From the NCBI GenBank assembly GCA_030147925.1, contig JASBUK010000123.1, positions 1 through 39,920 of the forward strand: DNA of 39,920 nt. The letters are read 5' to 3'. The DNA comes from Trueperaceae bacterium. GTDB lineage: Bacteria; Deinococcota; Deinococci; Deinococcales; Trueperaceae. Positions 34,367 to 37,395 of the stretch are shown here, piece by piece (position 1 is the first letter of the stretch; every line of letters begins with the position of its first letter). The translations under genes and the position numbers were made by a program. The notes below the pieces were generated by a model that was not told the DNA's origin, did no database searches, and saw nothing but the letters and a program-made list of their open reading frames with translations.

Positions 34367-35209
34367 CTACGAATAGCGATAGCGTAGCAGTTTACGCTTA
34401 GCACCCTCTAAAATAAGCTGGTCGATGATGGCGGCAAGGATGGCAATGACCAAGATGCCCATTAGCACGCCGGGCATGTCGGCAATTTCACCCGAGTAGG
34501 CCAGCGAGCGACCAATACCGGCACCAAAACCGACGATCATCTCCGCAGAGATAAGCGCCCGCCAGGCGTTGCCAAAGGCTACCTGTGCCCCGGTGATAAG
34601 TTCGGGCGTAACTGCGGGTGCATAGACAAAGCGCATCAGTTGCCAGCGGTTTGCCCCCATAACCCTACCGGCTTGCAAATGAGTTTTTTGTACGCTTTCG
34701 GTAGCGTTCATGACGCTTAAAGCGGTAGGGAAGAAAGCGGCAATGGCTACTACCACCATAATGGGAGCGTTACCAAAACCCATCAGGATTAGAAAAAGTG
34801 GCACCCAGGCAATCGAAGGGATGGATTGCAAGATAACCACCAGCGCTTTTAAAGTGCTGCGCAAAAGCCCGGAAGTGCCCGAGGCGAGCCCTAAAAGAGT
34901 ACCCAGCAAGATGGCTGCGCCATAGCCTACCGCTAAGCGCGAGAGACTGCCCACAATCTGCTCGACAAAGACGGGATTGCTAAGCTCACGCCCCAAGCGC
35001 TTAAAGACCAGGGGGATATCGGGCATTAGAAAGGCTGGCAGGGCAAAAGCGGCTAGCTGCCAGATGAGGAAAATTGCCAGGCTGGCCAGCAGATAAGGGC
35101 CCCAGGTGCGCAGCCGCAAGCGTGAGGCAAGCTGCTGGACATGTCTTTTGCCTGCTGAGGAGGCTCCTTTGACGCCGAAATTTGTTTGCACGGGTGGTTT
35201 GTGGATCAT
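34367..35209 (-). CDS. ABC transporter permease, SsuC/TauC/NrtB type
   Basis: Membrane subunit of a sulfonate/taurine/nitrate-class importer. A basic cytoplasmic N-terminus precedes six or so helices, the first being YLLASLAIFLIWQLAAFALP. The cytoplasmic EAA-type loop reads LQAGRVMGANRWQLMRFVYA followed by PAVTPELITG, and SIPSIAWVPLFLILMGFG is typical for SsuC-like permeases. The length of 280 residues is normal. It is the last gene of the ATPase-binding protein-permease operon, 47 nt behind the binding-protein gene. The substrate is inferred from the Cys-rich leader peptide to be a sulfur compound. Confidence 0.9.
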   Translation of the reverse strand: MIHKPPVQTNFGVKGASSAGKRHVQQLASRLRLRTWGPYLLASLAIFLIWQLAAFALPAFLMPDIPLVFKRLGRELSNPVFVEQIVGSLSRLAVGYGAAILLGTLLGLASGTSGLLRSTLKALVVILQSIPSIAWVPLFLILMGFGNAPIMVVVAIAAFFPTALSVMNATESVQKTHLQAGRVMGANRWQLMRFVYAPAVTPELITGAQVAFGNAWRALISAEMIVGFGAGIGRSLAYSGEIADMPGVLMGILVIAILAAIIDQLILEGAKRKLLRYRYS

Positions 35210-35256: not shown

Positions 35257-36231
35257 TTAGTTTTGGGCTCGAGCCTCCTGCCAGGAGAGGTCTAAAATGG
35301 CGTCGACATCAAGCTCTGTTTCTAAAATGCCCTGCGCTTTCATGATGCCGGCCAGTTCTTTCATGCGGGCAATTTCTGCTTCGCCTAGCAAGGGGCTGAA
35401 GGTTTGGGTTTCAATGGCTTCTAAGATGACTTGCTCACGGCTCAGTTCGCCGCGCTCGAGCGTTGACAAAGTCGGTTCGGCAATAAAGTAGGGGGCAATT
35501 AAACTGGCGGCTTGCGCCGGATCGTTTTGCAGCAGTTCAATGGCTGCGGCCTGTGCGTCCAGGGCAGCCCAGATAGCATCCTGGCGATCAGCTAAGGTAT
35601 CGCTGGAGGTAATAACTACCATGCAAGGGAAGGGCCAGACCTGCCCGACTTCATAGATTTGCGTGACCGGGGCTACCAGCCGCGCAATGCGGTCATAAGG
35701 CTCGAACAAGAAAGCAGCGTCAACCCGGCCACCGACTAATGACTGTACTGCCACCGCCGGGGCCACACCCATGATGTTTAAGTCATTGGCGTTAAGCCCG
35801 GCCTCGGCTAAGGTCACACCTTTTAGGACGATGTCAGCGGTGCTACCCTGTTTTTGCGAGGCCAGCGAGCGGCCTGCTAGGTCGGCCACGCTGCTAATAC
35901 CCGAGTCGTTGCGGGCCACTATCGAGTGATAGCCCATCTGCGCCCCGCCAACGATCTTTAGATCAGCACCGCGTGAGACCCAGGTAAAGGCATTGGAAAA
36001 ACCCAGCACGCCGATATCGAGTTGTCCACCGACGATGCCTTTGATCAAGTCGGTGCCGGAACTGAATTCGACCAGTTCAGCTTCTAGGCCGTATTGTTCG
36101 TAAAGACCGGCTTCATAGGCGGTCATAACCTGGGCGTCGTCCATGACGCGTACATAGCCGATGGTGAAAGGCTCGGCGGAGGCAAAGCCCGCTAAGAATG
36201 CGAGCAATAACAAGGCAATCAATTTACGCAT
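35257..36231 (-). CDS. ABC transporter substrate-binding protein, SsuA/TauA (NMT1-like) type
   Basis: Exported binding protein with a 19-residue signal peptide (MRKLIALLLLAFLAGFASA). Mature features of the NMT1/SsuA cluster include FTIGYVRVMDDAQVMTAYEA, AGLYEQYGLEAELVEFSSGT, GGQLDIGVLGFSNAF, LAGRSLASQKQGSTADIVLK and VGGRVDAAFLFEPYDRIA. ATG 36231 (324 residues) is preferred to an upstream in-frame start because AAGGAG precedes it and the signal peptide begins there; it overlaps the end of the ATPase gene by 8 nt. No lipobox Cys. Ligand not determinable by eye; sulfonate or taurine is favoured over nitrate because of the poly-Cys leader ORF. Confidence 0.9.
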   Translation of the reverse strand: MRKLIALLLLAFLAGFASAEPFTIGYVRVMDDAQVMTAYEAGLYEQYGLEAELVEFSSGTDLIKGIVGGQLDIGVLGFSNAFTWVSRGADLKIVGGAQMGYHSIVARNDSGISSVADLAGRSLASQKQGSTADIVLKGVTLAEAGLNANDLNIMGVAPAVAVQSLVGGRVDAAFLFEPYDRIARLVAPVTQIYEVGQVWPFPCMVVITSSDTLADRQDAIWAALDAQAAAIELLQNDPAQAASLIAPYFIAEPTLSTLERGELSREQVILEAIETQTFSPLLGEAEIARMKELAGIMKAQGILETELDVDAILDLSWQEARAQN

Positions 36232-36997
36232 AACTAAACTCCTTGCTGTTTTGTTGAAGGGGATTTGTCTGGCGGATGCCGAGCAGCGATAGAATTTCCT
36301 GCCGTTCTTCGGCGTAGACAGCCGGATCGCGCTCGGCATGGTTCTTGCCGATCTCAATATCGGCCAGGCATTGCGCTGGGCGCTGGCTAAAGACCAGGAT
36401 GCGACTGGTCAAATAAAGTGCTTCGTCGACATCGTGAGTTACCAGCATTACCGTGAGCTTTTGGGCCTCAATAAGCTGCAAAAGCACATCTTGTAAGGCC
36501 ATTCTGGTAAGTGCATCAAGAGCGCCGAAGGGTTCGTCTAAGAGCAGCAGCTTGGGCCGGGCGATAAAGGCTCGAGCCAAAGCTGCCCGTTGACGCATCC
36601 CGCCGGATACCTGGTGCGGATAGTAATGCTCAAAGCCGTCAAGCTGAACCTGGCTTAGCCAATGCTGCGCTTCTTTGAGGGCTTCTTTGCGTTTTAGACC
36701 CTGAAATTCGCGAGCTAAAGCGACGTTGCGTTCGAGCGTGAGCCAGGGGTAAAGGGCGTGTTCCTGAAAAACCAGGGTGCGCTCGGGGCTGGCTCCTGTT
36801 ATCTTGCTACCACCCGCTTCGATAAGACCGCTGGAGCTTGGCTCGAGCCCCGCCGCTAGATGCAATATCGTGGACTTGCCCGAGCCACTGGGGCCGACTA
36901 AGGCCACAAACTCACCGGCGGCAACCTCAAGCGAGAGGTTTTCCAGTACTGAAAGTTGACCAAAACTTTTACTTATATGTCGAAACGACAGATTCAT
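36224..36997 (-). CDS. ABC transporter ATP-binding protein, SsuB/TauB type
   Basis: Energising subunit of the importer. Walker A GPSGSGKST (residues 35-43), Q-loop FQEH (77-80), signature SGGMRQR (131-137), Walker B LLLDEP (151-156) and the switch His in VTHDVDEAL are all present. The sequence ALYPWLTLERNVAL is typical of the SsuB/TauB/NrtD branch. The length of 257 residues is normal. It is the first gene of the operon; its start lies about 170 nt from a consensus promoter, behind the Cys-rich leader ORF, and its weak AAGG ribosome site can be paired into an upstream segment. Confidence 0.93.
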   Translation of the reverse strand: MNLSFRHISKSFGQLSVLENLSLEVAAGEFVALVGPSGSGKSTILHLAAGLEPSSSGLIEAGGSKITGASPERTLVFQEHALYPWLTLERNVALAREFQGLKRKEALKEAQHWLSQVQLDGFEHYYPHQVSGGMRQRAALARAFIARPKLLLLDEPFGALDALTRMALQDVLLQLIEAQKLTVMLVTHDVDEALYLTSRILVFSQRPAQCLADIEIGKNHAERDPAVYAEERQEILSLLGIRQTNPLQQNSKEFSYA

Positions 36998-37058
36998 TTT
37001 CTAACCTTGTAAAGAAACTAAATTTCCTGGGGGATAAGCGGTTAAAAGCAAAGCTTTA
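36997..37058 (-). promoter_or_regulatory. Competing hairpins between the Cys leader ORF and the ABC ATPase start
   Basis: On the minus strand, TAAAGC (37058-37053, includes the leader ORF stop) pairs with GCTTTTA (37049-37043) with one bulged base. Overlapping TTTTAACC (37047-37040) can instead pair with GGTTAGAAAA (37006-36997), which contains part of the ribosome site and the A of the ATG. The two helices exclude each other, and ribosomes stalled on the Cys codons would affect them. Confidence 0.4.
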
Positions 37059-37127
37059 ACAACAACAGAAGCCATTATGAAGAATGCGTATTTGGGTGCA
37101 CACCTGGGGATAAATCATAAAACTCAT
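37056..37127 (-). CDS. Putative 23-residue Cys-rich leader peptide (attenuator ORF)
   Basis: On the minus strand an ATG at 37127, preceded by GGAGG with about 4-nt spacing, opens a 23-codon ORF that starts MSFMIYPQVC and ends NGFCCC, with three consecutive TGT codons directly before TAA. It lies wholly inside the leader of the SsuBAC-type operon, downstream of its promoter. Four of 23 residues are Cys while most proteins here contain few. Poly-Cys upstream ORFs control sulfur operons by cysteine-dependent attenuation in mycobacteria; the same logic is inferred here. A longer version from ATG 37172 (38 codons) would start in the promoter and is unlikely. Confidence 0.55.
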   Translation of the reverse strand: MSFMIYPQVCTQIRILHNGFCCC

Positions 37128-37141
37128 GAGGCCTCCGTAAA

Positions 37142-37166
37142 TTAGTTGACAAAACTCATCAACTAA
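37142..37166 (-). repeat. Stem-loop at the 5' end of the ABC operon transcript
   Basis: TTAGTTGA (37142-37149) and TCAACTAA (37159-37166) form a perfect 8-bp stem with a 9-nt loop, right at the predicted transcription start. It could protect the 5' end. Confidence 0.45.
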
Positions 37167-37172
37167 GTGCAT

Positions 37173-37210
37173 AGTATTCTCCTTTACCCCTGGCTTGTCA
37201 AGGGACAAGC
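37173..37210 (-). promoter_or_regulatory. Promoter of the sulfonate-type ABC operon with operator-like inverted repeat
   Basis: On the minus strand TTGACA (37201-37196), exactly 17 nt, AATACT (37178-37173). GCTTGTC (37193-37199) and GACAAGC (37204-37210) form a 7-bp inverted repeat over the -35, a likely repressor or activator site. Start expected near 37164-37168. Confidence 0.65.
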
Positions 37211-37395
37211 TGACAAAAAGATCACTATATCGGGTGGTTGGTGGTAGGTAGTTTGTGGTTAGTAGTAAGTGGTGGGTGGGAAAGGCGCTTCTAGAAAGCA
37301 TCCCTAAAACACCCAGGAACGAGGAGCCAGCTTACCCTCTCCCGGCCCCTCAATTCCCTTGCCAGCCCCCACTTTTTACTCACTACTTTCTGAGT
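37211..37395 (-). other. Intergenic low-complexity sequence between E2 and ABC operon promoter
   Basis: The plus strand from about 37230 to 37279 is almost only G and T with TAG words (GGTTGGTGGTAGGTAG and similar), and CACTTTTTACTCACTACTTTC at about 37369-37389 is the inverted wording of the patch near 15087. No ORF with a ribosome site and no terminator hairpin with T-run were seen behind the E2 gene. Confidence 0.4.

Follow-up and report, generated by a model that had tools for sequence, protein, structure and literature searches.

A cysteine-codon leader ORF and a probable sulfur operator upstream of an SsuA-type importer operon in a Trueperaceae bacterium

Introduction

The window analyzed here is the whole stretch of 39,920 nucleotides of contig JASBUK010000123.1 (positions 1 to 39,920 of the forward strand) from the Trueperaceae bacterium assembly GCA_030147925.1. 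On its minus strand, a short reading frame that closes with three consecutive cysteine codons precedes an ABC importer operon. This raises the question of whether the importer is controlled by the supply of cysteine, and whether such control would be exerted at the promoter, in the transcribed leader, or in both. An earlier note, made from the sequence alone, had proposed a cysteine attenuator with two competing RNA helices.

The importer operon and its link to sulfur

The operon has the order and the class assigned to it in the earlier note, namely an ABC ATPase of the Ssu/Tau/Nrt class (36224..36997), an NMT1_2/SsuA-like substrate-binding protein (35257..36234) and a BPD_transp_1 ABC permease (34367..35209), all on the minus strand. 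In the 110 other genomes of the order, no orthologue of the binding protein exceeds 32% identity, whereas Marinobacter and Halomonas proteins match it at about 72% and those of Bacillus and Paenibacillus at about 55%. Judging from these identities, the operon was most likely acquired horizontally. Proteobacteria keep the same importer gene order, and no importer orthologue was found in plasmid records.

Regarding the cargo, the surroundings of the orthologous operons are informative. Cysteine synthase A genes, scoring above the NCBIfam cut-off, are located directly 3′ of the operon in four Paenibacillaceae-type loci (L065:5558-6499, L072:5463-6407, L074:5635-6570 and L075:5474-6406). In Tepidibacillus, the orthologous operon is directly preceded by a SAM riboswitch (98 bits; L073:2674-2777) and followed by a Sulf_transp (YeeE/YedE-like) gene. 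Based on these neighbors, a sulfur source is the likely cargo. The cysteine synthase A genes and the SAM riboswitch, together with an operator common to sir-cysH (see below), support the suggestion in the earlier note that the importer carries a sulfur source, as well as its assignment to sulfur/cysteine metabolism. The SAO organometal transport system (SaoA/SaoX/SaoP) was considered as an alternative identity and rejected, as SaoA reaches 212.7 bits against a cut-off of 360 and both SaoX and SaoP also remain below their cut-offs.

Promoter and probable operator

The promoter TTGACA-17-AATACT (37201-37173, minus strand) consists of a −35 element, TTGACA, at 37201-37196 and a −10 element, AATACT, at 37178-37173, separated by a spacer of 17 nt, with 10 of 12 matches. 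Four promoter-like sites occur in the region, compared with 0.5 in shuffles. As described previously, an inverted repeat on the same strand, GCTTGTC-CCTT-GACAAGC (37210-37193), overlaps the −35 element; its sequence does not fit the operator consensus given below. Directly 5′ of the promoter, at 37233-37300 of the window, lies a dispersed CCACC/ACTAC-rich repeat with about 40 similar copies in the genome.

The next element downstream had been taken for a 5′ stem-loop of the transcript, an assignment that we replace. It is a 23-bp palindrome, TAGTTGATGAGTTTTGTCAACTA (37165-37143, minus strand, about +1 to +24), with the consensus TASTTGAY-N7-RTCAASTA, and the same motif recurs at other sulfur promoters, both in this genome and in another genus. 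From this distribution, a DNA operator appears to be the best reading of the palindrome, accounting for it better than an RNA stem-loop would. The core TTGAY-N7-RTCAA is found at 28 places in the genome versus 8 for the control, and the core matches with fitting flanks or an AT-rich center include those at sir-cysH (two), at DUF4395/Rrf2 and at a RimK-like ATP-grasp gene. The sir-cysH pair accompanies the promoter of an operon with nitrite/sulfite reductase, cysH and siroheme genes, and the DUF4395/Rrf2 site separates a DUF4395 gene from that of an Rrf2 regulator. Apart from the leader itself, the sites of the studied genome (G000) are located at C130:1376-1435 (L218), C103:6772-6794 (L247) and C131:2436-2458 (L245).

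In an exact search, the extended 23-bp form was present in 4 of 111 genomes: three sites in the studied genome, two each in G012 and G021, and one single match elsewhere. G012 and G021 represent another genus of the Trueperaceae, and all four of their sites (L268 near 5884 and 6256 in G012; L269 near 3330 and L270 near 532 in G021) are found at sir-cysH and cysG-like siroheme genes. When nine sites are aligned, the outer and inner arms are nearly invariant, and the outer TA...TA bases recur even though they lie outside the search seed. Six of the eight aligned sites other than that of the leader itself belong to sir/cysG loci. Because the consensus was drawn up after the sites had been seen, the argument draws more strength from the recurrence of the motif at sulfur genes of different genera. 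The position is shared as well: at the leader and at sir site 2 alike, 37-39 nt separate the start of the −35 element from that of the palindrome, which places the latter at about +1. Collectively, these data suggest that the palindrome probably marks a sulfur-assimilation regulon in Trueperaceae.

By its position, the Rrf2-family protein encoded beside one of the palindromes is a candidate for the regulator. As in the CymR-type (Rrf2) cysteine regulons of Firmicutes, sulfur-assimilation and importer genes would be placed under one operator, and an Rrf2 gene adjoins one of the sites, although its link to the palindrome is positional. With 57.9 bits, far short of the CymR cut-off of 195, the local protein resembles CymR only distantly. 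It is widespread in the family and occurs even in genomes for which the exact motif search returned nothing. A further Rrf2 paralogue (C32), which adjoins a cysteine desulfurase-like gene, is not preferred because no operator lies nearby.

The leader ORF

The leader ORF encodes MSFMIYPQVCTQIRILHNGFCCC in 23 codons (37127-37056, minus strand; ATG at 37127, TAA at 37058-37056) and is preceded by the Shine-Dalgarno (SD) sequence GGAGG at 37136-37132 on the same strand. Cysteine occupies codons 10, 21, 22 and 23, and the last three are TGT codons (37067-37059, minus strand) directly before the TAA. The GGAGG and the 23-codon frame ending in Cys-Cys-Cys-stop are therefore as first described, with the correction that the coordinates 37065-37056, originally assigned to this ending, are off by two. 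The gap between the leader ORF and the ATG of the ATPase gene (36997) amounts to 58 nt. Read from an ATG at 37172, which has AGGAG before it, the same frame comprises 38 codons, but this start would be available only to transcripts initiated upstream of the −10 element named above.

In the 18 genes of the window, cysteine accounts for 32 of 7379 codons (0.43%), against which four in 23 codons is unusual. A genome search returned 29 TGYTGYTGYTRA sites, and the leader ORF is the only one among them with an in-frame ATG and an SD of at least 5 bases. About 0.05 Cys-Cys-Cys-stop ORFs with an ATG and a strong SD are expected genome-wide, a rough value obtained by multiplying the 29 sites by the 0.18% of sampled genome stop codons that have such a start 10-60 codons upstream, the sample being small and including the leader ORF itself. 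On this estimate, the leader ORF, a single case without relatives, is unlikely to be pure chance, and its placement before a sulfur operon adds weight to its significance. The in-frame matches of a looser SD-ATG-Cys-Cys pattern were all located inside longer reading frames.

An SD-led ORF with a Cys run was found upstream of none of the 23 proteobacterial operons in which the ATPase gene comes first, and at none of the 17 further loci, orthologous or distant, for which upstream sequence was available. Neither is there a Cys ORF at the operator-bearing sir genes of the studied genome, G012 and G021. Consequently, the leader ORF appears to be specific to the studied lineage. Regarding the question raised in the earlier note, whether relatives that keep the operon have lost the ORF, it is indeed missing from the orthologues in Proteobacteria and Firmicutes; however, these orthologues come from other phyla, where the operons are controlled in their own way, and the operon is missing from close relatives, which leaves the comparison indecisive. 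For the same reason, namely the absence of the operon from close relatives, the leader ORF could be accidental.

The search for other Cys leaders at cysK, cysQDN and sir-cysH of the studied genome gave no convincing case. Cys-containing ORFs do occur before cysD-type genes; their offset is constant across several genomes, and we interpret them as conserved coding sequence read out of frame. In most genomes, a family-wide SD-ATG-Cys-run scan remained at the level of the reversed-pattern control and was dominated by Leu-rich reading frames.

Proposed regulation

The reading that we favor, with a confidence slightly above even, is that of a sulfur-regulon importer with its operator at +1 and, in addition, a cysteine-specific leader whose Cys codons adjust the expression of the ATPase gene. 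A sulfur-assimilation regulator, with the Rrf2-family protein as candidate, is predicted to bind the palindrome at +1 and would probably keep the operon repressed in the presence of ample cysteine or sulfur. Every transcript would then carry a short translated ORF ending in three Cys codons, at which ribosomes should pause when Cys-tRNA is scarce. Such pausing would most likely add a further adjustment of ATPase-gene expression, specific to cysteine and most plausibly upward under limitation, and a tnaC-like, Rho-dependent route is one possible way for a paused ribosome to raise expression. The cysteine leader is, as such, a plausible second layer of control.

Alternatively, the sulfur regulator may control the promoter and nothing more, the Cys ORF being a sequence accident without a regulatory role. 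This explanation, which we consider rather unlikely, draws on the fact that the operator fully accounts for sulfur control, that sir-cysH has the same operator without a Cys ORF, that the orthologous operons also lack one, and that the leader shows no RNA structure signal (see below). What it leaves aside is the presence of a strong SD and a Cys-Cys-Cys-stop ending, a combination as rare as estimated above, exactly before a sulfur operon.

Folding of the leader RNA

In the attenuator originally drawn, two mutually exclusive helices follow the ORF, one of them covering the ATPase start. Both pairings exist in the sequence, within 36997..37060 of the minus strand: GTTAAAGC (37060-37053) can pair with GCTTTTAAC (37049-37041), and GCTTTTAACC (37049-37040) with GGTTAGAAAA (37006-36997). 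An evolved attenuator, however, is not supported, as the stretch is no more stable than its shuffles and no terminator accompanies it. The local fold reaches −9.7 kcal/mol versus a shuffle mean of −11.7 (z = +0.76), i.e., it is weaker than this mean, and the fold of the whole leader gives z = −0.64. The hairpin alone amounts to −2.5 kcal/mol and the start-covering structure to −7.7 kcal/mol. No intrinsic terminator (hairpin plus U-run) was found between the leader ORF and the ATPase gene on the minus strand, and an Rfam search of the leader (riboswitch, T-box) returned no family near the gathering score. Taken together, these predictions suggest that the leader mechanism is probably not the helix switch in its original form.

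For transcripts that end at 36980-36970, the helix probabilities are predicted to switch, and the hairpin vanishes from the ensemble once more of the ATPase gene is included. When the ribosomal footprint is blocked at codons 21-23 of a transcript ending at 36980, the predicted accessibility of the ATPase start decreases from 0.50 to 0.34, with 2 of 100 shuffles as low; in longer transcripts, the same block lowers it from 0.53 to 0.49 or 0.44, with 11 and 5 of 100 shuffles as low. A stalled ribosome would thus slightly hide the ATPase start, a direction opposite to induction by starvation. This behavior and the switch in helix probabilities would be expected of a reverse translational attenuator, in which a ribosome stalled at the Cys codons opens the local hairpin, the start-covering helix forms and cysteine shortage lowers importer synthesis. 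We regard such a device as improbable, taking into account that the effect lies within the shuffles for longer transcripts, that the helix energies are ordinary, and that it makes little sense for an importer to shut down in shortage.

Two other features of the leader were observed. The SD region of the ORF, ACGGAGGCC, can form 9 bp with codons 19-21 of the same ORF, GGCTTCTGT (window 37065-37138), so that a ribosome at Cys21 is predicted to expose the SD. A direct near-repeat, TTTATCCCCAGG / CTTATCCCCCAGG, is present at 37103-37114, within the leader ORF, and at 37026-37038 in the intergenic region.

Comparison with known cysteine leaders

Polycysteine short ORFs reportedly act in mycobacteria. 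PMC13236596 and PMC9094748 cite the work on them (Canestrari et al. 2020), and predictions of Cys-codon leader peptides without clear terminators exist for actinobacterial cys operons and for one cbs gene (PMC1262725). Like these leaders, the present one is a short ORF with a Cys run near its stop, placed before a sulfur operon and without an intrinsic terminator. It differs from them in being SD-led instead of leaderless, in belonging to a different phylum, and in preceding an SsuA-type importer with a putative operator palindrome at +1, an arrangement seen once. In Rhodobacterales, the tandem Cys codons of the uORFC-8-2 motif before cysS are thought to sense charged Cys-tRNA; the upstream ORF described here shares the tandem Cys codons, whereas the intrinsic terminator of uORFC-8-2 and its conservation, in 145 examples (PMC8632094), have no counterpart at this leader. 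Poly-Cys upstream ORFs, which the earlier note names for mycobacteria, are a known kind, with examples also in Actinobacteria and Rhodobacterales; the helix mechanism of the note is not supported. For Deinococcota, the literature search yielded no Cys-codon leader ORF.

Least probable of all is that the leader encodes a Cys-rich arrest or sensor peptide answering a metal or a thiol-reactive agent instead of Cys-tRNA, since, although copper-responsive Cys-containing upstream ORFs exist (CruR, a DUF2946 protein with CXXC and C-terminal RAPP motifs; PMC9426467) and the leader peptide likewise has Cys residues, clustered at its C terminus, its 23 residues contain neither CXXC nor the RAPP arrest motif, and the operon and operator are linked to sulfur, not to metal.

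Returning to the favored combination of operator and cysteine-specific leader, we tentatively propose, with somewhat less than even confidence, that a foreign sulfur importer has been wired twice into the sulfur network of its host, through a lineage-specific operator at +1 and through a newly evolved Cys-codon leader ORF. Such a leader would be without precedent, as a cysteine sensor, both in Deinococcota and for SsuA-type importers, and would operate without an intrinsic terminator. If true, Cys-codon leader ORFs extend to Deinococcota, and the locus offers a testable example of a horizontally acquired transporter put under local cysteine control. The likely sulfur-assimilation operator of Trueperaceae can, in turn, be used to find the regulator and further members of the regulon.

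Among the palindrome-bearing genes of the studied genome, the RimK-like ATP-grasp gene (L245:1940-2949, G000:C131) has the motif about 25 nt before its start and possibly encodes a new sulfur or thiol enzyme.
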